DNA from: Sistotremastrum niveocremeum HHB9708
Taxonomy: Eukaryota > Basidiomycota > Agaricomycetes > Sistotremastrales > Sistotremastraceae
Assembly: GCA_001630475.1 (NCBI GenBank)
Contig: KV419423.1
Coordinates: forward strand, 1-64,000
Direction: 5' to 3'
Length of the DNA: 64,000 nt
Shown here: positions 6,217-48,113 of the stretch, one piece after another
Layout: each line of letters opens with the position of its first letter
Position numbering within the stretch: position 1 is the stretch's first letter
Position numbers and translations under genes: made by a program
Notes under the pieces: generated by a model
Told to the model about the DNA's origin: nothing
What the model saw: the letters and a program-made list of their open reading frames with translations, nothing else
Database searches by the model: none

Positions 6217-6499
6217 AAGTAGGTCGTCGCTAGTATTACTTGTAATTGATAATGGGAATATTTTCTGGGTAATCGGCTTCGCGAGTATTCCCTCTCGAAG
6301 CAAAATGCGTCAAAGTTCTTGGACGTACATGTATCATATTGGTTACAATAACGCATAGGCATAGGCATAATCATAGGCATAGGCATAAACAGAGGCATAA
6401 TCATAGGCATAATCATAATCATACTCATAGGCATACGCATAGACATAAGCGGTATCAGCGCAGGCAAGGCTAAAGGCATGACCGCGACCATGATCCTCG

Positions 6500-7317: not shown

Positions 7318-8177
7318 CGCCTCCCTTTGATGTTCGTGCGAACTCCGACTGTACGGTTCCGCTGCACTTCGAACCTCTTGTTTGTCTCCCTCAGTGCACT
7401 CTCTTTCTGCCTGGATACTCTGCTCAGACTCTTCCAAACCAACGTGAGAACCATGGCCTGCAACAGGTATAAAATAACGGCCATTTTCGGCGGAGTTTCA
7501 ATAGGCCTTTTCATTCTCTCCCTCTCCCCTCACTCCTAGTAGCCTTCGTGGCGGGCAAGAATGACGCGTGGTCATGGTACGTCTCTCATCTTCGTCGACT
7601 ATTTTATCGTCTCTGACCATCACTCTAGTGGCCGTTTCGCTCCTGTCACATGTGTGATGGGTAAGTCGTTCTCGAGGAGTGAGGAGCAGGATGCCCCGGG
7701 GTCATGGTGCGTCAATCTCACAATACATGTTGCTCTCTATTCTAACATCTATTGCAGTGGCTCTGCTGCCCGGCCACATGTGTGGTTGGGGAAGGCGTCC
7801 GGAAGAGGGCCCCGCCAAAGGCTTGCCGTCTATCGTAAGTGCCTCTGTCATTTGTCCTCGTTCTTCTCAACTGACATTTGCTTCAGGTCTCCCCCTTCTT
7901 GCACGCAATGTGTGATCACTTTCCGTCGAGGGGTGTCGGAGTCAGACGGTGGACGGATATGCAAACGACCAGGGTCGACGCAGTCTCGGTTATGCCTAAC
8001 GTGGTCGTGCCCATGGTCACCTCGAGGATCATGGTCGCGGTCATGCATTTAGCCTTGCCTGCGCCGATGCCGCTTATGTCTATGTCTATGCGTATGCCTA
8101 TGCCTATGCCTATGATTATGTCTATGCCTATGTCTATGCCTATGATTATGCCTATGATTATGATTATGCCTATGATG
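7318..8177. repeat. Right arm of a long inverted repeat
   Basis: This arm is the inverted partner of 6350-7209. It ends in the same hexamer tract, here read as tatgcc/tatgat/tatgtc units from about 8070 to 8177. High identity implies recent formation or continuing gene conversion between arms. Confidence 0.95.
7468..7475 (+). promoter_or_regulatory. TATA box, right arm
   Basis: TATAAAAT lies 86 bases upstream of the ATG at 7561, followed by a pyrimidine-rich stretch ending cactcctag. This is typical spacing for a fungal TATA promoter. Confidence 0.5.
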
Positions 8178-8204
8178 ATGTATATGCCAGCAATTTTTAA
8201 ATGA
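7561..8204 (+). CDS. Candidate Met-rich protein in right palindrome arm
   Basis: Possible exons 7561-7669, 7764-7834 and 7887-8204, using gtaagt...tgcag and gtaagt...ttcag. The joined frame runs from MTRGHGTSLIFVDY through a VALLPGHMCGWGRR block to a tail in which nearly every second residue is Met (MSMRMPMPMPM). That tail is simply the hexamer tract read in one frame. An extra intron (7577-7628) has perfect ends but would bring a stop early. I know no family. The TATA box, splice sites and conserved exons argue for a gene; the odd tail and frame differences between arms argue for caution. Confidence 0.35.
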
Positions 8205-10622: not shown

Positions 10623-11801
10623 ATGCCTCGAAAGTGCGAAGTTTGCGGAACCGCGACCAAAAAGACTTGCGTCGGTTGCTCGCGTACGGCCTACTGCAGC
10701 ACGAAATGTCAGAAGCAGCATTGGTTCACCCACATCCTCGAATGCGAGAAACCTGGACGCGAGGTCACGACAGCAGATCGACTTGTCGCTACAGCCATGA
10801 CAGATGAAATTTTCATCGACTCAGCCACCATGGCCGACTACGGATTTTTAAAAGTCACCAATGACGCAGAATCCACTATCATCGTTTCATTGTTTACGGA
10901 AATGATTCGAGATCTTGGAATCAGAGCTCCTGCACTCCACAAATGGCGCATCGAAGGACGCCTGCATTCAGAGATGGTGAGGGTGTACAGGGAGGCTGGA
11001 AGGACGGAGTCCGATACCAAGTTCCAATGGCTTCTGCAACGCCCCTCTCTCTTCTCTCCAGATCCCTCTAATATCGCCACTCGAATGTACGAGCTGGCCC
11101 TGGGCTTCGAACATCAGACATGGATACACATAGGAGGATCGCCCGCCGACTCTCACGACGACATTACGATCGCTCAGCAGCTCTGGTCCGCGGATCGGAA
11201 GCAGTGCTTTCGATTCTATACAAGCATGCTGAGTAGTGGAGGTCCGACTGTCAGTGCCTCGGACGTGTGGATCCAATTCGGCTTCTGCGTGTACGAGGAC
11301 CAGGCTAATTTCGCACTTCGAAATCTATATAGCTCCCTTATCCAAATTTGCCCCTTCAACGAATTCTGCGACGCATACTCCACCTCTTCTCTTATCGCCC
11401 TCATGGATCGAAAAAATCTGAAAGCCTCTCGAAGACAGGTACCACCCGACCTCGAAATCGTACTATCGGGATCTCCACATAATATTCAGGACGTCTGGTA
11501 TCTCAAAACTTTCGCTGTATTCGACGAGGGAGAGGTTCCGACCAGTGACGTCCTCGTCCCATTTGGATTCCTGAACTGCGTGGACGATGCAGAGATGACT
11601 CAACTCAGGCTCTTTTACGGCCGGCTTTTCAAGGACTACCAAATCTCTCCATCAACACTCCAGGAAGCCGCTGACCGCGATCAATTGTTGGAATACATCA
11701 TGAAGGTGCCATGGCTGAACATCAGTAAAGTCGAAAAGCACTTCCTACGTCGCGTTCTCAAGACCCAGAATCATCCGACGGCTTTGGCACTTACAAAGTA
11801 A
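10623..11801 (+). CDS. MYND zinc-finger protein, copy 1
   Basis: Single-exon gene, 392 residues. An N-terminal MYND finger has all ligands: Cys5, Cys8, Cys16, Cys19, Cys25, Cys29, His37, Cys41 (CEVC ... CVGC ... YCSTKC ... HILEC). MYND fingers mediate protein-protein contacts. The remaining 350 residues match copies 2 and 3 throughout (for example ALHKWRIEGRLH, TWIHIGGSPADSHDD, RLFYGRLFKDY) but carry no catalytic motif I recognise. There is no SET domain. Upstream DNA resembles that of copy 2, so the promoter was duplicated too. Its 3' flank (about 11830-11950) resembles the 3' flank of copy 3, pointing to a separate and probably more recent exchange. Confidence 0.9.
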   Translation: MPRKCEVCGTATKKTCVGCSRTAYCSTKCQKQHWFTHILECEKPGREVTTADRLVATAMTDEIFIDSATMADYGFLKVTNDAESTIIVSLFTEMIRDLGIRAPALHKWRIEGRLHSEMVRVYREAGRTESDTKFQWLLQRPSLFSPDPSNIATRMYELALGFEHQTWIHIGGSPADSHDDITIAQQLWSADRKQCFRFYTSMLSSGGPTVSASDVWIQFGFCVYEDQANFALRNLYSSLIQICPFNEFCDAYSTSSLIALMDRKNLKASRRQVPPDLEIVLSGSPHNIQDVWYLKTFAVFDEGEVPTSDVLVPFGFLNCVDDAEMTQLRLFYGRLFKDYQISPSTLQEAADRDQLLEYIMKVPWLNISKVEKHFLRRVLKTQNHPTALALTK

Positions 11802-13449: not shown

Positions 13450-14652
13450 ATGCCTCGAAAGTGCGAAGTCTGTGGAGTCGATACACACAAGACCTGCATC
13501 GGCTGCTCGAGGACTGCCTATTGCAGCACAAAGTGTCAGAAGCAGCAATGGTTCTCCCATATCCTTCGTTGCGAAAACCCCGGTCGCGAAGTCACAACAG
13601 CAGATCGCCTCGTCGCTCTGATCATGACAAAGGATTTCACCCTGGACACACCCACTATGAGAGACTACGGATTTAGCAAAGCCAAGAGCATGGCGGAAGG
13701 CAACTCTGCTGTTGCAGTCTACAGCGAAATCATCCGAATCTATGGAGTTCGAGCTCCCGCACTTCATAAATGGCGCATCGAGGGACGGCTGTACGAGGAG
13801 ATGGTTAGGACATACAGGGAGGCTGGGAAGGAAGAGTCCAACTCCAGCACCTTTCGATGGTTACTCGAACACGCCTACATGTTTTCTTCCGAGACTTCTC
13901 AGAACACCTCCCTCTTATACGACCTCGGCTTCAACCTCGAACGACGGGCATGGATTCATATAGGAGGATCTCCCACCGACTCTCACGATGACATCATGTT
14001 CGCCCAGCGGCTCTGGTCTGCAGACCGGAAACAATGTTTCAAATTCTGCATGCACGCATTGAGTAATGGTGGCCCTAGTGTCGAGGCAACCAGCTTATGG
14101 ACCCAATTCGGGTTCTGCGTGTTCGACGATTTTGAGTGTCGTCCACTACAGAGATTATATGCGACTCTCATTCGAAATTGCACCTTCAACGAACTATGCG
14201 ACGCTTATTCCTCTTCCTCCCTCATTTCTCTTATCGATCGAAAGAAACTCAAGACCGCGCGAAGAAAACTCCCTCCAGATTTCGAAACCGTACTCTCTGC
14301 ATCTCCTCACAAGATTCCGAGCGTCTGGTATCTCAAGTCCTTTGCTCTATACGATGAAGCACGTGTTCCGACAACCGACGTTCTTATTCCTTTCGGATTC
14401 TGCAATTGCGAAAACAACGCCGCGATGACTCGACTTAGGCTCTTTTACGGCCGGCTTTTCAAACAATACAAAGTTTCTCCAACACAACTCCAGGACGCCG
14501 CCGATCACGACCAGCTCTACGAATACGTGATGAAGATTCCAAACCTAAACATTAGCAAAGTCGAAAAGCAATATCTTCGTGACGTTCTCCAGACTCAGAA
14601 TCGTCTCAGGGCACTGGCAAATCGAATGGCGTCTTCCAATCCAACTCTATAA
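13450..14652 (+). CDS. MYND zinc-finger protein, copy 2
   Basis: Single exon, 400 residues, colinear with copy 1 over its full length, with a complete N-terminal MYND finger (CEVCGVDTHKTC ... YCSTKCQKQQW). Shared blocks include GRLYEEMVRTYREAGK, WIHIGGSPTDSHDD and RLRLFYGRLFKQY. It differs by an additional residue in the middle and a longer C-terminus (ANRMASSNPTL). About 300 bases of 5' flank align with copy 1, which shows a tandem duplication including the promoter. The frame is intact, so it is likely functional; the partner protein is unknown. Confidence 0.9.
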   Translation: MPRKCEVCGVDTHKTCIGCSRTAYCSTKCQKQQWFSHILRCENPGREVTTADRLVALIMTKDFTLDTPTMRDYGFSKAKSMAEGNSAVAVYSEIIRIYGVRAPALHKWRIEGRLYEEMVRTYREAGKEESNSSTFRWLLEHAYMFSSETSQNTSLLYDLGFNLERRAWIHIGGSPTDSHDDIMFAQRLWSADRKQCFKFCMHALSNGGPSVEATSLWTQFGFCVFDDFECRPLQRLYATLIRNCTFNELCDAYSSSSLISLIDRKKLKTARRKLPPDFETVLSASPHKIPSVWYLKSFALYDEARVPTTDVLIPFGFCNCENNAAMTRLRLFYGRLFKQYKVSPTQLQDAADHDQLYEYVMKIPNLNISKVEKQYLRDVLQTQNRLRALANRMASSNPTL

Positions 14653-28379: not shown

Positions 28380-31370
28380 CTAATATGGGGTATTTGGGAT
28401 CAACTCCAGTGACTGCAGACACTGATTCATGCCTAGAACATCTCCAATCCTCTCAAAAATATTCTTAGCTTGACTGAGAAGGTCTTCTGCCTCCAGATAT
28501 TGTCCTTGATTGTCCCTGAGCTTCCCCAAGCATTGTAAAGTCTGAGCCACTCCCAATTGATCACCAATCTTCTCAAATATTTGTTTAGCCTGATTGGCAA
28601 ACTGTTCAGATTCCAGATGTTGGTCCTGTATCCTCTTGATGTCTGCCATGGAATACAGACATTGAGCAGATCCTTGTTGTTTCCCAATCTTCTCAAATAT
28701 CTTCTTTGCCTTTTGAAACCGATCATCTGCTTCAGAATATTCAGCTTGCATCTTTCGCACCTCTCCCAATGACTGGAGGCAGCGTGCAATGCCCAGCTGA
28801 TCACCAACCATACCAAACATCTCTTTTCCTTGAGTGAGAAGTAGCTCAGCTTCTGGATATTGCTTCTGCATTCTCCTGATTTCTCCCATGGAGCGCAAGC
28901 ATTGAGCTGCACCCTGTTGATTACCAATCTGTTCAAATATTTCTTCAGCTCTAGCAAGAAGGGCCTCCTGAGAATATTGGGCTTGGATCCGCTTGAGCCA
29001 TCCAAGAGAATGTAGGCACCAAGCACAGCCCAGTAGATGGCCAATCTTCAGATATATCTCCTTTGCTCTGGTGAGGAGATCCTCAGCATCTGCATACTGA
29101 TCCTGCATCCTTCTGACATCACCCAGAATTTGCAGACCAGTGGCATGCATTTCAGTATCAGGTGGAAGATGTGGAAGGAGAGCAAGCAAGATAGCACTGT
29201 CTGGAATGGTGGAGGAAAGGAAATGAGCATAGTTTAATACTGCATTGGCTTGATCCTCTAAAATCTCTGGCTGAGCTAGGATGGAACCTAGCACAAACTC
29301 CAGATTTGACTTCTCCAGTGTCAGTTTATCAACTGCATTGTCCAAACCTGGATATTCAACCCCCAGTTTACCACATTTGGCAAGATCAAGGTACCATTTT
29401 TGCAGGTGATGCAAATCAGATGATGATAATGGGTGATGATGACATGTATACAGTCTTATAGGGGCAAGGGTTGTGACAACTGGAGAGGAAGAGGGGGGCA
29501 AATGAGCAAGAGAGAGTCTCTTTAATGTCTGAAGTGCAGACTGCAGTCCAGAAATGGCTGGCAGTGACTTCAATAAATCCAATGAAGCCCCATTTGGAAG
29601 ATATGATATGATGGAGAGCACTCTCACTGCATCAGGATTCCTAATCATGGGCAAAGTATCAAATGATAATTTGATAGACACCATGATGTCATGTTCTCTG
29701 TGATCAGATATGCCTCCCTGTAGAAGAGATAATTTCTCTTCTGCTAGCCTGACATTAAGAGTCTGAAGATCTTCAGTTTGGGCCAGGCCAGCAAGGAGTG
29801 TGACTGCAAGTGGGACATAGTCAACTTTCATCAGCAAAGAATCAAGTTCTTTGATGCTGGCTGCATTTGTAGGCTCTATTATGGACCTAGACAGGAATGC
29901 AGCGCGTGCAGCATCACAAGTCAAGGCTTCCACCAGGGGAGCTCGGTCCCATTCCACACCACCAGGCAACTCCGTTCCTCGAATAGTCAAGATCAATGTG
30001 ATATGAGAGAGCGTGGAAAGGTGTTGCAGGATGTTACAAACTTCCGGTTGTTCTGGCGACAGCCAAAAAGTTTCAGCGTTGTCGAGGACGAGGAGTGTCG
30101 GAGCAGGAGTAGAATTGAGCGTCACAATGACGTCATGGAGTAGATTGGTTCCTACGACGTTGGAACCGATGGCGGCAGCAATGGAGGCAAGTAGCAAACG
30201 GACCGTGTTGCACGAATCCGTTGAGACAAAATATCTCCTCGCGCCGAAGATGCTTGCAGACGTGCCATGGTGAAAGAGTGCACGGGCAATGGATGTCTTG
30301 CCGATTCCTCCAGGTCCTCGTATGCATAGATGGGCTCCCGCAGGCGCTCCAATTTTCCGGCCGATTACGCCGATAAGATCTTTGATCAATGCTTCACGAC
30401 CAAAGAAATGGATGGGCGGAGGTGGCGCAATGGCAGAACTGTTCACAGCCACGACCGTGAGGAACAACGAATGTGATTCATAATCTTCACTCACGTTGAG
30501 TGCGAAAGGGGAAACGAACTTCGCTCGTCCGCAAAGACGCGTGTAAGAAGTATCGTCTGTTGCTACCGATGTAAGAATACACGGAGGAGATTGGACGGTG
30601 GGGAGACTGACGTTCAATTTTTCTTGCTCTCGTCTCAGCCGTGCCCGGTATCCCGCGAGCCGGTCCTTATCGGCTGCAATGTTTGCGCTACGTGTCGCCA
30701 TACCCCTTTCAAGGAAGGGGGTGATTTCGACCAAGATATCGCTCAGAACCCTGTCACAAGTGAGCCAGAAGGAAGAATGCGTCGGATGAAGAGAACTTAC
30801 TGGACGAAACAAGTGATTGATTCGGACGCAAAACCATCGGAGATGGACGCAGTGACGCTCTTCCTAATCAATTTGATAAATTCAGTCAACTCCACGCTGA
30901 ATTCCATCCAATCTTGTCGATTCTTGACGTAGTCCTTCCAGAAAATAAGAACACAAAGTTCGGGATTGCCAGTGGACGGCGCTTCAGAAACTCACTCGGC
31001 TCAGCTTGATAAGCACCCATAAACTAGCAGCAGTAGTCTTCAGAGGCGCCAATGCGTCAGATGCTTCCTTGATCGACTCCAGTGTGAGAAGCAGAGCGTT
31101 CAAGATATGGTCGCGTTTTCGGTTTGTTTTGCCTTTCGCACGCATCGGAGAAGATGAGGGGCCAGAAGTACCATCGAGCATCACAGGGGGTGGTCCGGCT
31201 AATGTGATGGATTCTGAGTTCGGTGAAGACAATAAAAGCGATGGATCCTCAGTGGTTGCTGCCACAGGGAGATCCGGTGGTACATCGGACTCTGATGACG
31301 ACAGATTATCGACACGAGTGGAAGAGCTGTGGCGTTGACGCCTTTGTTTTCGATTGAAGAGCAGCGGCAT
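28380..31370 (-). CDS. NLR-like STAND protein with TPR repeats, copy 1
   Basis: Fungal NOD-like (STAND) regulator. Minus-strand exons: 31370-30996, 30934-30801, 30750-30612, 30562-30495, 30438-28380; 924 residues. The 49- and 56-nt introns near 30.5 kb are also open as read-through, but splicing yields the expected PPPPIHFFGRE entry to the NTPase. Order: low-complexity Ser-rich N-terminus, helical segment (HILNALLLTLESIKEASDAL), Walker A GPGGIGKTS (about residue 280), Walker B LLVLDNAE (about 354), winged-helix region, then at least six 40-residue TPR units (ADAEDLLTRAKEIYLKIG type). Such proteins act as self/non-self or immune switches in fungi. CpG is almost absent from about residue 418 onward, unlike the 5' half. 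Confidence 0.9.
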
Positions 31371-32123: not shown

Positions 32124-33308
32124 CTAAGGGAGAAAATCGAGCGCCATTGCCCTCAAACGATTCTGAGTTTTGAGAACACGACGCAGGTAGTGCTTTTCGA
32201 CTTTACTGATGTTCAAGTTCGGGATATTCATGACATATTCGTAGAGCTGGTCGTGATTGGCAGCGTCCTGGAGCTTTGGTGGAGCGATTTTATATTCTTT
32301 GAAAAGCCGGCCGTAAAAGAGTCTGAGTTGAGTCATCGCCGCATTGTCCGCGCAATTGAGAAAGCCGAATGGGATGAGGACGTCAGTCGTCGGAACACGT
32401 GCTTCGTCGAATATAGCAAAGGTTTTAAGATACCAGACGTCCTGGATCTTGTGTGGAGATTCCGATAGTACGGTTTCGAGGTCGGATGGTACGTGTCTTC
32501 GAGAGACTTTCAGATTTTTTCGATCCATGAGAGCGATGAGAGAAGAAGTGGAGTAGGCGTCGCAAAATTCGTTGAAGGTGCAGGTGTGAATCAGGGAGCG
32601 GTATAGATTTCGAAGTGGAAAGGCAGCCTGGTCCTCGAAGACGCAGAAACCGAATTGGGTCCATACGTCTGAAATATCGACCATCGGGCCCCCACTACTG
32701 AACACGAGTGAGTAGAAGTCGAAACATCGCTTCCGGTCCTCGGACCACGGCTGCTGTGCTTTCACGATATCGTCGCTCGAGTCGGTGGGTGATCCCCCGA
32801 TGTGTATCCACGTCTGACGTTGGAAGCCCATGGACAGCTCATGTATGTAGGATACGGTCTGTGAGGGATCTGGAGAAAAGAGAGGGGCGTGCTGTAGAAG
32901 CCATTGGAAGTTGGCATCGGACTCCGTCCTTCCAGCCTCCCTGTATATCCTGACCATCTCTGCGTGTAGCCGTCCCTCGGTGCGCCATTTGTGAAGTGCG
33001 GGAGCTCTGATTCCAAAGACTCGAATAATTTCGGTATAAACTGATACGATAGAATCGCGGTCTGCGGTACTGGTGATCTTATAAAACCCGTAGTCGGTCA
33101 TGGTGGCTGAGTCGATGGCGATATCGTTTGTCATGGTTGTAGCGACAAGTCGATCCGCGGTCGTCACTTCGCGTCCAGGTTTTTCGCACTCGAGGATGTG
33201 AGAGAACCAATGTTGCTTTTGACATTTCGTGCTGCAGTAGGCCGTCCTCGAGCAACCAATGCATGTCTTTTTTGTCGCGACTCCACAAACTTCGCACTTT
33301 CGAGGCAT
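32124..33308 (-). CDS. MYND zinc-finger protein, copy 3 (inverted)
   Basis: Single exon on the minus strand, 394 residues, with an intact N-terminal MYND finger (CEVCGVATKKTC ... CIGC ... YCSTKCQKQHW ... HILEC). It aligns end to end with copies 1 and 2. It is closer to copy 1 (shared RQVPPDLE/RHVPSDLE region, LVFSSGGPMV, identical AYSTSSLIALMDRKNLK block), and 3' flanking DNA of about 140 bases is also shared with copy 1. It lies between the two NLR-like genes and points the opposite way from copies 1 and 2, so it arose by an inverted transposition or conversion some 20 kb away. Confidence 0.9.
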   Translation of the reverse strand: MPRKCEVCGVATKKTCIGCSRTAYCSTKCQKQHWFSHILECEKPGREVTTADRLVATTMTNDIAIDSATMTDYGFYKITSTADRDSIVSVYTEIIRVFGIRAPALHKWRTEGRLHAEMVRIYREAGRTESDANFQWLLQHAPLFSPDPSQTVSYIHELSMGFQRQTWIHIGGSPTDSSDDIVKAQQPWSEDRKRCFDFYSLVFSSGGPMVDISDVWTQFGFCVFEDQAAFPLRNLYRSLIHTCTFNEFCDAYSTSSLIALMDRKNLKVSRRHVPSDLETVLSESPHKIQDVWYLKTFAIFDEARVPTTDVLIPFGFLNCADNAAMTQLRLFYGRLFKEYKIAPPKLQDAANHDQLYEYVMNIPNLNISKVEKHYLRRVLKTQNRLRAMALDFLP

Positions 33309-35146: not shown

Positions 35147-38100
35147 ATGGCTGCTCGTGTTCCCGAAAGCACCACATTGGGCTCATTTATACCCGGAGAT
35201 GTAGCTCGAAGTCTGAAAGAGCTGTCCTCGTTGTCTCCCTTCCCATATCCCAAAGCCATAGCCGGATTGGCGCTTACCATATATGAAGTCAGTAATATAG
35301 TCTTGATTATGGAAGATAATCTGAAGTCTTATGTCAAAACGTAGAGATCGGAAGTACGTCCACATAGCTGATAGTTTGTCGACTATCTCTTATCATCTCG
35401 CAGGATTATGGTGGACCAATCTCGGATCTTCAGCATCTCACTAGAATGGTCTTGGATACTGTTTCGACTGTTGCTCAAAATCTCCATGAAATCGGAAACC
35501 AAATAGATGAAGAGGTGACATGCTGCAGCTCTCAGCTATTGAGGTATGACCTTGTTGTTTCTTTCTCCTTCTAGTCCAAGCTTAATCGACTCCAGAGTGC
35601 TCGAGGCAATCGCTGATTTCGTCAAAGAACATTCCAAAAAAAACAAATTCTCTCGTATCTTGTCTGCAAATCAGCTAAGAAAAACGATCAATTCATTTCA
35701 AGACGATCTCGACACCGCGATTAATAGTCTATCGGTAATTGATTCATTGTTGAAGATCATTTTTAGAAAGATATTGACGTTGCGGCAGCTGTGCTTGAAG
35801 CTGAAGACTCTTACCCTGACAGCGCGTACGCAGAAGATGGAGGAAAATAATGAGGATGAGCTTCAGCAGGCTATAAACTCGGCTCTCCGAACGCAGGATG
35901 AATATTTGAAGTCCCATATGTTGAAAGAGGTGAGATTTATTCCCGATTGAGCTCACCTCATAATCTAATCTAATCACGGTTTGTCTCAGGACCTTGCAGA
36001 CGGGAGGTTAGTCCAGTCACCCATACTCATCCCTCGATGATTCCGCTCATTCTTGAAACAGGTTACCCACTACAATTCCAGCTGCGCCACAGATATTCTT
36101 TGGACGAACTCCGATCGTCAAGGAGCTTGTAGATTCATTCGCTGGAAATGACTTGTTAACGGTCTCGAAAGAGAAACGTGTTGCGATACTGGGTCCAGGA
36201 GGAATCGGGAAAACGAGTCTCGCGCTGACCGTACTCCACGATGCGAACATCGTCTCCTCCTTCGGTCGTCACCGTTACTTCGTCCCGTGCGAGTCACTTC
36301 TGAACACGGATGCCTTGGTGCATCATCTCGGCAAGCGGTTCGGGATTCCTATCCCTTCTACCATCAGTCTTCAAGCGAGGCGATCTCATCTCGGTAGTCG
36401 TCTCAAATCCATCCTTAAAACTCTCGACACTCCACTGTTGGTTGTTTTAGACAACTTTGAGACACCGTGGGAATCCGTCGCTAATCGTTCTGAAGCCGAA
36501 GACTTGCTTCAAATCCTAACGGATATTCCCCAATTTAGTCTTCTGGTGACCATGAGAGGTGCAGAACGACCAAGTCGCATCGCGTGGAGTCGCCCTTTCT
36601 TGCCTCCCTTGACGACCTTAGATAGCGAGTCGGCCAGACGGACCTTTGTCGCTATCTCCGATGTCTCCGCGGATGACCTGGACCTTCCAGAGCTGCTGGA
36701 AGCGTTGGAGAATGTACCACTTGCGGTCACATTGATGGCTAATCTAGCGCAAGAACAGACGTGTCACGAGCTTTTGCAGAAGTGGAAACACGAGAAGACT
36801 TCGATGCTTACCCGGGGTTGGGACAGCCGTACATCTAGTGTGGACGTGTCTATTCAAGTCTCTCTGTCTTCCGATCGCCTTCGGTCGAATCCTTCGAGTT
36901 TCTCTGTTCTTCAAATCCTGTCGATGTTGCCAGACGGCTCTCTAGCTGAGGATCTCGCCTCAATGAGCGAGAGTCCAGCGCGGGTGCCTGGAGCAATTAC
37001 GTCATTGCGTCGGGTAGCATTAGTACAAGAGCGCACGATCTCAGAGGCGCAGACGTCCGGTCGTCTTCATGTACTATCTCCCATCCGCGAATTCATGCAG
37101 GCTCGTCACCCGATCAACATTCAGGCCTTCAGTGTGATCGCTCAACATTTTATCGCGTTCATCGAGTCTCTGGAGATCGATCGACAGAATTCCGAAGAAC
37201 TTCAGATACTGCGCAGCATTCGAACTCAAATGACAAACATATGCGTTGTGGTTTCCCATGGCTTGACCGAAAATGTGTTGATGAAAGAGCTCATCAGAGC
37301 GCTCATCCGCGTCCATGCATTCTCCGACGATGCGACACCAGGTTTGGTGTTGACCCTGCTCCAAACGGCAATGATAACTGCTCAGAAGATATCCGATAAA
37401 GAGCTTGAGGCTGCATGTCTGACTTGCTCCTATGAAAACATGGTTTCCACCGAGCTGAAGGACTGCCGCATAACACTCGAAAATGCGCTGAGCATCTATA
37501 AACACGAAAATCTCCAATCGATAACTGCACAACGTGAGCATGTTCGATGTCTCCGACATTATGGGGATATATGGAAACGCATCGGTGATTTACATAAGGC
37601 TCTCGACGTCTTGAAGCAAGGTCTCGAGCTTGCCTCCACGGGTGGCTTTTTCGCAGAACAGGCCAAACTGTTGGCGGCATTATCCGGAATCTACTCTGCC
37701 CTCAATCAGACAGATGATACCCTGAATGCCGCTCATAGCGCGATTCAAATCGCTGACGCTCATTCAATACCCATGGCTAGGGTTAGGGCCTTCACAATAC
37801 TCTCAGAACTTTACTTCAAACGCGCGTCATATTCTCTCTCGGCCCAGTTTTCTCAAAGAGCGCTTCAGACAACTTTCCAAATAATGGGACCTTGTCGTGG
37901 GTATGCCATAAACTTATTGTGGATGGCGCGAATACACTACATTCAGTCTCGCCTTGATCTCGCGGAACAGACCTATACTGAAGCTCGTTCCATCTTTGCG
38001 AGAATCGGATCGACAGATTGGATGTCAGCTGCTACCGTATGGATCGGAAGAGTACGCCTAGCACGAGGAGACATCACAGGGGCGCTAACCGACTTCCACG

Positions 38101-38705
38101 TGGCTCTACGAAAGTGGAGAGAGCTCTCGTGGACCAGAGAGGAAGCTGACAGCCTCACAGCCATCGGAGAAGCGGAACTCCGTCAAGGGAATGTTAGTCT
38201 CGCGCATTCTCATTTTACTCGAGCCACCGAAGCATTTCGCGTCGGTCAAGAATACGGAAGCAGGCGCTATGCAGAGGCTATCGTTGGGTTAGCAGAAGTT
38301 TACCTGTCAGAAGACTCAACCGGGCCAGCTATGATATCGTTCGTTCTCGCTTCGGTGATCTATCGACATGCAAACGATCGTTTGTCTGTAGCCAATATCA
38401 TCAAGAAGATGGGGGATGTTCAATTTCGGCTTCAGCAATGGGAGGATGCCCGATCATGCTACATGGCCGCGTACGAAATCCTTCAATTTCTAGGGGTGAA
38501 ATGGCCCTTAGCAGATGTACTGCTGGGATTAGGAGATCTAGACGATATTGATGGCCAACAAGAGAGTGCTGAGTCGAAGTGGCAGATGGCTTTGAAGCTG
38601 TACACCGACAATGTATGCAAGCAACAGAGCTGCGTCGAGAAGCTGGCGACCCTCAATTCTCGCAACAAGAGTCCACCTTTACATGTAAGGAAACCTTTGT
38701 TGTAA
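35147..38705 (+). CDS. NLR-like STAND protein with TPR repeats, copy 2
   Basis: Exons 35147-35287, 35345-35353 (9-nt microexon), 35404-35543, 35596-35929, 35990-36006, 36062-38705; about 1094 residues. A 36-nt in-frame segment at 35735-35770 has splice-like ends and may be removed. Order: helical N-terminus (KAIAGLALTIYE, VLEAIADFVKEH) as in many agaric NLRs, then PAAPQIFFGRTPIV leading into Walker A GPGGIGKTS (about residue 257), Walker B LLVVLDNFE (about 340), an NB-ARC-like region, and a long TPR array (YFKRASYSLSAQFSQRALQ and similar). The domain order equals copy 1 but identity is low and CpG content is normal. It ends near a TTACATGTAA palindrome (38679-38688) inside the last codons. 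Confidence 0.88.
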
Positions 38706-46312: not shown

Positions 46313-46629
46313 ATGTAGGGCTTCATGTGGTGTAGTGAATCGTTATGTCGTTGCTTTCACCATTTACCGTGTCCGATTTCGTCCGATCGTTTCTCCGTGC
46401 CAAAAGAGCCCTTCACAAAAGTCATCACATGTAATCACTACTGGCAAGCCCATGCAGCAAGCCGATATGTATTCCAGAGTAATATACAGCAGATAAAGTA
46501 AAGAAATGACGAGAAAGACATACCGGAGAGAATAAAAATGTTCTTGCACGAGTTCGATCCAGTCTGCCTAGCAATCCTCAAAGTCTAAGACTTCAAGCAA
46601 TGGAAGACAGAGAAGAGCGAACTCTTCCC

Positions 46630-47400
46630 CGGCATCACACAAACACTCATTTAGACTGCCTGCTGCCCCGCAGCAGGAATGAGTGTTGGATCATCTGCCG
46701 AATAAGCCTCACACACAATGGGATCATCGGCAGGGAGAAAAATAGCCTCTCACAAACACTCTCCCGAGCGTAAGGATCATCGGCAATAATAAAAAATGAA
46801 AAAGGCCTCACACAGATGCTCTCGCGAACATAAGGATCATAGGCTCACGACCTCACACATAATGGACTCCGGATCACCGGTCGCGAAGAGAATGGAGCGA
46901 AGGGCGGTCTCCTCCCCAGCATCACACACCCATCCACTTAGACTGCCCGCTGCCCCGCAGCAGGAATGAATGGTGGATCATATGCTGAATGGGCCTCACA
47001 CGCAGCTCGGCTGCTCACTGGAGTCCAGAGAGAGCTAGAGTGGGATCATCGGCGAGCGAAAGAATAAACAGCCTCACACAGTTGCTCCGAAAAGCAAACG
47101 GATCACAGGCCCCCAACCTCACACTGAAACAGGATCATGGGAAGGGAAAAGAACTTGTGAGCTCGTCTCGACATCACACGAACATCCACTTGAACAGCCT
47201 GCCGCCCGGCGGCAGGAATGGATGCTGGATCATTCGTCGAGGGGGTCTCACACTGCAGTATGCTGGACGCCAGCTAATACTACGACACCTCATCAGCGAG
47301 CGAAAGGCAGAGAGAGCTCACACAGATGCTCAGAAGAGCAAGCGGATCCCAGCTCCCCGACCTTACACTGCGACGAGATGATGGGAAGAGAAGAGAATGA
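46630..47400. repeat. Structured tandem array with covarying hairpins
   Basis: About 770 bases alternate two boxes: GGATCA(T/C), at 46688, 46721, 46774, 46834, 46871, 46975, 47043, 47100, 47132, 47227 and (GGATCCC) 47344, and (C)CTCACAC(A), placed between them. Three higher-order units begin with a large hairpin: 46642-46687, about 46930-46974 and about 47182-47226. In units 1 and 3 the inner stem is cctgctgc/gcagcagg versus cctgccgc/gcggcagg, and the outer stem cactcatt/aatgagtg versus catcca(c)tt/aatggatg. Smaller hairpins such as tgctc-agaa-gagca and gcagc-tcg-gctgc follow several CTCACAC boxes. No long reading frame fits the pattern. Confidence 0.8.
46642..46687. ncRNA. Hairpin of array unit 1 (possible structured RNA)
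   Basis: A 10-bp outer stem (aacactcatt with aatgagtgtt), an internal bulge tagactg, then an 8-bp GC-rich stem closed by ccc. The structure is preserved in the later units by paired changes, as expected for RNA or for selected cruciform DNA. Strand of transcription is unknown. Confidence 0.4.
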
Positions 47401-47504
47401 ACTGAAAAATTAACCGAGGAGGCCTAGCATATACGAAATTTTGAGGACTGTAGGCAAGCAACGCAATACAAAGACTAGAATTCGATCTAGAAAGAAGGTT
47501 GAGC

Positions 47505-48113
47505 ATGGAACACAAAGAACCTCAATTTGGACAGCAGGAGCAGGACAAGAGGCGAGCGTCGGCTAAGTCATCTAGCCGGCCGGCCGTTGCGGAAAGCACT
47601 CGTCCGGCATCGGAGGTCGGATGCGAGACGGCCGTTATGGCGAATAATTCGTCGCCTCATCCCAGATTGCCTGTTGATCAGCTTGGACGAGCCAACAGAG
47701 TGCGCCATTCTATTTTTCCCTTACACCGTCTGTAAATCTCTAACCTAAATGACAAGTTAGCGCAAAAGGATGCGATCTTTGCTGGGTTGACCGCTGGGCT
47801 GGTTGGAGGTGAGGCATGATGAGTCTGAGCGTGGCAGAGATATGTGAGCCTAAACCGGATATATCAGCCATCATTGGAGGTCAATTCTTCAAGTTTGGAC
47901 GGAACAAAACGATTCTGACGGGCATTGGTGAGTTTCGATGTATAATTTACCTGGTCGAAAGAGCTAACATAAGCGCCATAATCAGCAACGGGCGTCATAT
48001 CGAGCTATTTCTTCGCGCAAGGATTCTTATCGACCCGTCTCGCTGCCCTGGAACAACAGGAACGAGATTTACACTCTACCCTTATTGCTTCTTCGAACGA
48101 TTTGCCTAAATGA
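47505..48113 (+). CDS. Small membrane protein, unknown
   Basis: Exons 47505-47699, 47769-47808, 47868-47927, 47986-48113; 140 residues. The N-terminal 65 residues are polar and charged. Then two short glycine-rich membrane segments follow (DAIFAGLTAGLVGAIIGGQF and TGIATGVISSYFFAQGFL) around a polar FGRNKT turn, and an acidic-basic helix ends it (LAALEQQERDLHST). This hairpin-like layout is seen in small fungal membrane proteins; I cannot name a family. All junctions are GT-AG and keep the frame, although the first acceptor (caaaag at 47768) is less certain than a nearby gttag. Confidence 0.65.

Follow-up and report, generated by a model that had tools for sequence, protein, structure and literature searches.

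Kink turns (k-turns) are known as single or few building blocks per RNA. U4 carries one of them in a spliceosomal RNA and no array, whereas archaeal H/ACA RNAs contain several L7Ae sites. The consensus of box C is RUGAUGA, in which L2-L3 is R-U, and that of box D is CUGA. A standard k-turn consists of a 3-nt bulge followed by a G.A and an A.G pair (PMC8191799, PMC5061560; these and the papers below are cited from excerpts). L7Ae-family proteins, the archetypal readers of the motif, contact the guanines of both G.A pairs and cover L1/L2 (PMC5061560). The 5' stem-loop of U4 snRNA is a single k-turn hairpin bound by 15.5K (PMC5689011, PMC5061560), archaeal RNase P RNA holds two k-turns (PMC4245976), and an object with six k-turns has been engineered (PMC5058347). 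At position 3b:3n any of the 16 pairings may be found in k-turns (PMC8191799). With U:U at this position a k-turn is of intermediate folding ability, magnesium-induced folding is promoted by C:G at 4b:4n and at -1b:-1n, G:C at 4b:4n is strongly conserved in the box C/D k-turn, and the k-turns tried in the same study folded with L7Ae (PMC5689011). A natural tandem array of k-turns was not found in the titles and abstract openings of the literature searched.

The array described here lies in a window of 64,000 nucleotides, the whole stretch of DNA that was analysed, which is the start of a contig of 432 kb (C30) in a genome of 34.7 Mb in 111 contigs. One protein encoded in the window is 96% identical over its full length to a protein of Sistotremastrum suecicum HHB10207, an agaricomycete of the order Sistotremastrales, so that the window probably comes from this genus or a very close one. 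As read from the translations, the array is intergenic: the upstream gene ends at about 46.3 kb and the downstream gene starts at about 48.35 kb, both on the plus strand. By likeness, we take the former to be aspartyl-aminopeptidase-like and the latter to be aldo/keto-reductase-like. Elsewhere in the window, three long uninterrupted reading frames (10623-11801, 13450-14652 and 32124-33308) apparently belong to one MYND-finger protein family, the protein matches of the first one bearing Pfam PF01753, and two long frames (28380-30812 and 36153-38705) have by eye an NLR-type look with tetratricopeptide-like repeats. Tandem Repeats Finder gave short-unit tandem arrays at 6348-6450 and 8075-8188, with units of 6, 12 and 18 bases of the GCATAG and TATGCC types, and made no report at the array itself.

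The original prediction drew attention to eleven GGATC(A/C) boxes alternating with CTCACAC-type boxes, in higher-order units of about 290 and 250 bases. Upon counting, the plus strand between 46600 and 47420 was found to carry exactly 11 GGATC(A/C) boxes (at 46688, 46721, 46774, 46834, 46871, 46975, 47043, 47100, 47132, 47227 and 47344), alternating with 11 boxes that end in TCACAC, 8 of which are CTCACAC. Over the whole window, the two strands together contain the latter word 17 times, a number reached by 3 of 100 shuffles. A repeat search revealed three copies of a 109-nt unit head (family D1) with spacings of 287 and 252 bases. The long hairpin of 18 pairs shows the three double-sided changes between units 1 and 3 that had been claimed (C-G/T-A, T-A/C-G and T-A/C-G). 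Unit 2, said to keep the fold with one or two mismatches, differs from unit 1 by two double-sided changes (A-T/C-G and C-G/T-A), three wobble changes and a single mismatch. The observed boxes, their spacing and the compensatory hairpin changes are confirmed as real. Two parts of the description had to be revised. The long hairpin comes first in the unit in the plus orientation but is the last element of the unit in the sense of the RNA, and the two alternating boxes, taken as separate elements, face each other as the sides of a single internal loop. Neither the strand nor the kink-turn core, nor the fact that both boxes form a single motif, had been part of that description.

Read on the minus strand, an element consists of an outer stem, a 3-nt bulge NRU, GAUC, a variable inner part, U, GUGA and the closing side of the outer stem. 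This layout is that of a standard k-turn, with a 3-nt bulge, G.A/A.G and then U.U and C-G, the bulge being located between a canonical stem and the G.A pairs. Eleven elements are present at 46631-47355 on this strand, in three tandem units of the order a-b-c-d, the first of which in the RNA sense (unit A) is partly decayed (Table 1). An element was counted in a scan if GATC and GTGA enclosed 8-59 nt, the bulge measured 3 nt and the outer stem had 3 bp or more. The scan gave 9 elements on the minus strand of the array, 4 on the remaining minus strand of the 64-kb window and 4 on the whole plus strand, while 2000 dinucleotide-preserving shuffles of the array gave a mean of 0.18 and a maximum of 3. 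With bulges of 0-2 and 4-6 nt, at most one element each was found in the array, as compared with the 9 at a bulge of 3.

Table 1 Features of the array; R1 is the covariance model described in the text, and training rows are elements from which it was built
Feature	Position	Strand	Remark
Small hairpin GAAGAG-UUCG-CUCUUC, directly downstream of last element	46612..46627	-	Read from the sequence
Unit C (= unit 1) element d, putative long-hairpin k-turn, final element of the RNA	46631..46699	-	Outer stem 7 bp; no R1 match at E 5
Unit C element c, short putative k-turn element, inner part 9 nt	46705..46732	-	R1 16.7 bits
Unit C extra element b', GAUC..GAGA (3n U->A), GNRA loop	46744..46785	-	R1 28.6 bits
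Unit C element b, putative k-turn, GCGA loop	46804..46845	-	R1 training row, 43.9 bits
Unit C element a, putative k-turn, outer stem 9 bp	46849..46882	-	R1 25.1 bits, non-training
Unit B (= unit 2) element d, putative long-hairpin k-turn	46918..46986	-	No R1 match at E 5
Unit B element c, putative k-turn, inner hairpin 44 nt	46992..47054	-	R1 11.8 bits (E 0.2)
Unit B element b, putative k-turn, UUCG loop	47070..47111	-	R1 training row
Unit B element a, putative k-turn core, outer stem with two U.U	47115..47143	-	No R1 match at E 5
Unit A (= unit 3) element d, putative long-hairpin k-turn, three compensatory pairs vs unit C	47170..47238	-	No R1 match at E 5
Unit A element c, decayed, GAGG at GAUC position	47243..47299	-	By eye; outside the 26-element set
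Unit A element b, putative k-turn core, bulge UGG	47314..47355	-	R1 training row
Unit A element a, decayed, both G.A pairs damaged	47356..47388	-	By eye; outside the 26-element set
Possible 5' flank: AGGCCT + TTCATTCTCTTC	47389..47435	-	Weak; comparison by eye with C12/C33 array flanks

For a wider comparison, 26 elements from the window and from the related arrays on contigs C12 and C33 were selected for containing the words GATC and GTGA (GAGA in one case). The eight core letters are constant within this set because the elements were chosen by those words, and this constancy is no evidence. In the same way, GA lies opposite GA next to the C-helix in 26 of 26 elements by choice; the sign of the GA/GA core that is independent of the selection is its identity at 42 of 42 positions between the two C12 arrays. 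With a bulge of 3 nt, 92 of the 104 outer-stem cells are paired, as against 36, 20, 50, 40, 37 and 44 at bulges of 0, 1, 2, 4, 5 and 6 nt, and reshuffling the 3' flanks 5000 times gave on average 72.1 paired cells and at most 84. There are 19 distinct 4-bp outer stems among the 26 elements. Three letters outside the selection are each kept in 25 of 26 elements, namely U at L3, a purine at L2 and the U before GUGA. The pair 3b:3n is U:U in 25 elements and U:A in one, 4b:4n is C:G throughout the set of 26, as follows from the selection, and -1b:-1n is C:G in 20, A:U in 5 and G:U in one. After the core, a C-G pair follows in 14 cases and U-A in 10, with one mismatch and one possible G-C without the bulged U. 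A strict core combined with free stems suggests that the core is what is recognised, the stems only holding it.

The named structure was compared with 500 shuffles in an alignment of 10 elements. Cells were paired in 94.4% as compared with 85.6% upon shuffling (0/500), the covariation score was 0.415 versus 0.230 (0/500), and 8 double-change cells stood against 3.2 (2/500) and 10 further pair types against 8.2 (16/500). Sliding the partners by 1-3 columns reduced pairing to 13-50%. Three pairs were changed on both sides in this alignment, which is not significant against the shuffled mean of 1.7 (reached by 89 of 500). The excess of compensatory change expected from more copies was thus seen in the paired outer-stem cells of the 26 elements, in the covariation score and in the double-change cells, but not in the number of double-changed pairs.

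Selection had originally been proposed to act on a folded RNA or on cruciform DNA. The folded molecule was upheld and the cruciform was not. In a DNA cruciform no preference between G.T and A.C is expected, because G.T on one strand is A.C on the other. Pairs 1-7 of the outer stems of the 26 elements contain 124 Watson-Crick, 31 G.U, 6 A.C and 21 other cells (31:6, binomial p 4e-5). The inner parts (23 distinct ones of at least 13 nt) were folded by a script giving equal scores to G.T and A.C, and gave 204 Watson-Crick, 30 G.U and 8 A.C pairs (p 5e-4); both p-values are optimistic because the cells stem from related copies. Eleven of the 23 apical loops are tetraloops; read in the sense of the minus strand, 9 of them belong to the UNCG or GNRA type, and in the antisense none does; counting distinct tetraloops, these types make up 5 of 7. 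The G.U excess together with UNCG/GNRA loops in one sense therefore speaks for RNA and against cruciform DNA: judged by pairs and loops, the selected molecule would be an RNA from the minus strand. A DNA element, acting through binding sites or cruciform-forming repeats on the chromosome, would go well with short alternating boxes and with the two inverted arrays at C12, but DNA hairpins would be expected to have their tetraloops without preference of sense and to lack the G.T bias present in both outer stems and inner parts, and we regard such an element as extremely improbable. Folding energy barely beats shuffles; taken by itself, it lends no support and hardly favours the sense strand. The z values were -2.44 and -1.93 for the minus and plus strands of the window, -1.41 for C33 sense (7 of 100 shuffles as good) and -0.96 for its antisense, and -0.41 (33 of 100 as good) and -0.45 for sense and antisense of one of the C12 arrays, C12R. 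Sheared pairs are not scored by energy models.

The search of the genome with the boxes, proposed with the original prediction, was productive, as the window-box pattern matched two inverted elements on contig C12. The region holds an inverted pair of arrays (C12R and C12L) that point outward from a common centre, and the five longest pieces of the arms are 85-93% complementary. A pattern made from the C12 boxes subsequently matched a single array of five elements on C33. By eye, the unit order a-b-c-d is common to all three loci, each array at C12 and C33 having a single unit and the window three in tandem. At the DNA level, the window array matched only itself when compared with its own genome, and it can be aligned to C12 and C33 over 26 and 34 nt only. 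C12R and C12L are identical at 42/42 core positions (out of 48 in the six C12R elements, element c2 being without a clear counterpart in C12L), 41/44 positions of the outer stems, 104/116 of the inner parts and 252/295 of the surroundings. Between C12R and C33 these values are 39/40, 34/40, 110/128 and 148/198, and for the poor alignment of C12L with C33 they are 30/37, 27/39, 76/107 and 140/242. C12 and C33 align over 901 columns at 69%, comprising the centre upstream of the array, in which GGCCTGCCCTAA is found, and the first elements. The common region upstream of the arrays (L030 4719-5356 and L077 4033-4686) contains GGCCTGCCCTAA-like words in both orientations; presumably GGCCTGCCCTAA resembles a promoter site of the Tbf1/telo-box type, and the region is a candidate two-way promoter. 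An outer inverted repeat surrounds the C33 array (L077 2904-5774). It is a member of a different repeat family, of which C33 carries further, diverged copies and C30 and C37 a few matches. A mobile element was rejected for the arrays, with three loci found and the outer repeat belonging to that other family.

A covariance model, R1, was built from 10 elements, three of the window and seven of C12. On C33, of which no element was used for training, it scored three of the five elements with 57.3, 52.3 and 37.7 bits, and the two elements whose inner parts are long gave no match at E 5. Six non-training elements of the window and C12 obtained 16.7 to 31.2 bits and element c2 of C12R 9.1 bits (E 2); the three d elements of the window and element 47115-47143 were not reported at E 5. 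R1 therefore models medium-sized elements only. Outside the three loci, 21 of 28 matches of the window-box pattern and 12 of 22 and 9 of 22 of the C12-type patterns were found, the reversed-pattern controls giving 3, 3 and 5. When 14 loci picked by pattern were scored with R1, only L077 on C33 exceeded 17 bits, the others having at most 16.3 bits or nothing; the E-values of these loci are unfair because the loci were chosen by pattern. A pattern for consecutive elements gave 54 matches, 15 of them in the three arrays (C12 7, C30 5, C33 3) and 39 elsewhere, among which there may be further arrays; its reversed control gave 3 and is a poor yardstick, the reversed word differing in composition. 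In the viral and the bacterial/archaeal collections, the C12-type pattern produced one and three records, respectively, with a single exact match, which we consider chance hits (R1 at most 14.6 bits).

These comparisons bear on whether the arrays could be decaying duplicates of a once functional RNA that plays no present role at the window locus. Two of the four elements of unit A have decayed, as judged by eye, and the C33 region in common with C12 holds one array only, as such decay would have it. Against this stand the sparing of the C12 core relative to its surroundings (42/42 versus 252/295) and the nine core-bearing elements in units B and C, which were chosen by their core and are in part so by construction. 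Decay without a present role is in our view quite improbable. The sequence itself shows the layout, the exact 3-nt register, outer stems that pair with different letters in different elements, the strand of the RNA, and a common core at three places in the genome. The array is real, structured and unusual, and most likely a new RNA family made from a known motif.

The earlier statement that no known fungal RNA class comes to mind agrees with Rfam, which gave no match in the window at gathering threshold; at E up to 5 there were four matches in 46400-47700, the best of them scoring 16.4 bits where the gathering threshold is 125.8. By layout, the array comes close to the box C/D k-turn that is bound by 15.5K/Snu13/L7Ae. 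Both have a 3-nt bulge with R-U, tandem G.A/A.G, U.U at 3b:3n and a terminal stem adjoining the GA of the 3' box directly, but 4b:4n is C:G instead of G:C in the array and its boxes read RUGAUC and GUGA. Unlike box C/D snoRNAs, the elements are without a recognised guide region and are placed in tandem within one stretch. It is very unlikely that the array is a polycistron of degenerate box C/D snoRNAs, that is, of methylation guides. A box C-like RUGAU, a box D-like UGA, the terminal stem and a weak match of one element to SNORD23 (15.9 bits, gathering 64, E 3.3) are in line with this proposal. Against it, RUGAUGA and CUGA are absent from the 26 elements as defined, GATC being present in 26 and GTGA in 25 (the elements were chosen by these words), 4b:4n is C:G, the inner parts (9-52 nt) mostly form hairpins of their own, and Rfam is without a match at threshold. 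The inverted fourth pair argues against membership of the box C/D guide RNAs, not against an action as a C/D-like k-turn.

SECIS elements have an RUGA/GA core in common with the array and were rejected in view of the tandem hairpins; a Pol III gene was rejected on account of stretches of 5 and 6 T within the array, and telomerase RNA since no template of 1.5 telomere repeats was noticed by eye. Like archaeal RNase P and H/ACA RNAs, the array would place more than one k-turn on an RNA; those RNAs, catalytic or guiding in function, have two or three sites each, while the array has 4-6 putative k-turns per unit and 11 in the window, is eukaryotic and has no recognised catalytic or guide part. With the ribosomal Kt-7, it has C:G at 4b:4n and, mostly, at -1b:-1n in common (PMC5689011), and with the 5' stem-loop of U4 snRNA the k-turn hairpin and C:G at -1b:-1n (PMC5689011, PMC5061560). 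Unlike Kt-7, it has U:U at 3b:3n in place of a well-folding pairing in which 3n = G, lies outside rRNA and is repeated many times.

A structured minus-strand RNA could also have a loop other than a k-turn, in which GAUC and GUGA make other protein contacts or ordinary pairs. The core letters vary too little for covariation to prove sheared pairs and, because the core is without covariation, a k-turn and weak ordinary pairing cannot be separated by base-pair evidence; the energy model draws ordinary pairs (U-A, A-U and U.G) in the core of its C33 fold. A strict 3-nt bulge, a purine at L2, U at L3 and GA in tandem on both strands agree with the k-turn rules, however, and ordinary pairing has no need of them. 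Furthermore, in element 46744-46785 and one C12R element GAGA replaces GUGA, a change of the 3n letter that a k-turn tolerates and by which ordinary pairing would be lost. We judge a loop of another kind unlikely.

On balance, we lean towards the array being the template of a minus-strand noncoding RNA of tandem k-turns that are likely docking sites for the L7Ae family, and together with the C12 and C33 arrays it is probably a gene family of such L7Ae-family-bound RNAs. The putative RNA would run from about 47.4 to 46.6 kb on the minus strand. Each hairpin would kink just above its outer stem, in the order C-helix, N-R-U bulge, sheared G.A and A.G, U.U, C-G, a single bulged U and the variable inner part, which would mostly be a hairpin, in many cases with a UNCG or GNRA tetraloop at its tip. 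U:U being middling, the C:G pairs favouring magnesium folding and k-turns folding with L7Ae, the elements are predicted to fold partly on their own and fully with protein. The row of k-turns may serve an L7Ae-family protein (Snu13/15.5K, Nhp2, eL8 or eL30) as docking sites, and by sequence the contact positions G1b, G2n and L1/L2, as given in PMC5061560, are compatible with the elements. One RNA would then gather several copies of the protein, either in a compact, repeatedly bent RNP or for titration of the protein.

The L7Ae family is represented in the genome by seven exon matches, some perhaps of the same gene. None of the seven is located on C30, C12 or C33; the context does not name the partner for this reason, and cis-control of an L7Ae-family gene was rejected. 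Given a core that is probably recognised, its archetypal readers and genes for these readers away from the array contigs, a multivalent docking RNA that would act in trans is favoured. A more tentative extension, to which we give less than even weight, is a class of eukaryotic RNA not described before, in which strung k-turns, four to six in each repeatable unit, would collect many copies of an L7Ae-family (Snu13-like) protein on one molecule, either as a sponge controlling snoRNP/spliceosome assembly or by forming the core of a novel RNP; the inverted box C/D core would let it avoid the methylation machinery. If true, a gene family of strung k-turns would be a natural multivalent array for a highly conserved RNA-binding protein family, and a natural case for the sharing or limitation of snoRNP and U4 proteins as well as for the 4b:4n pair sorting k-turns between functions. 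The array suggests that fungal intergenic DNA contains structured RNA genes absent from Rfam.

The window also starts with a large inverted repeat (1-1146), the arms of which (1-140 and 1007-1146) are 99% complementary, with a second pair of arms at 143-238 and 917-1012 (84%). Each arm carries one lone GATC..GTGA element in which one outer-stem pair is broken. The matches, at 38-98 and 1049-1109, score 13.4 and 12.5 bits with R1 (E 0.05 and 0.11 in 74 kb) and exceed element 46992-47054 of the array; they are possibly a solitary relative of the k-turn element.
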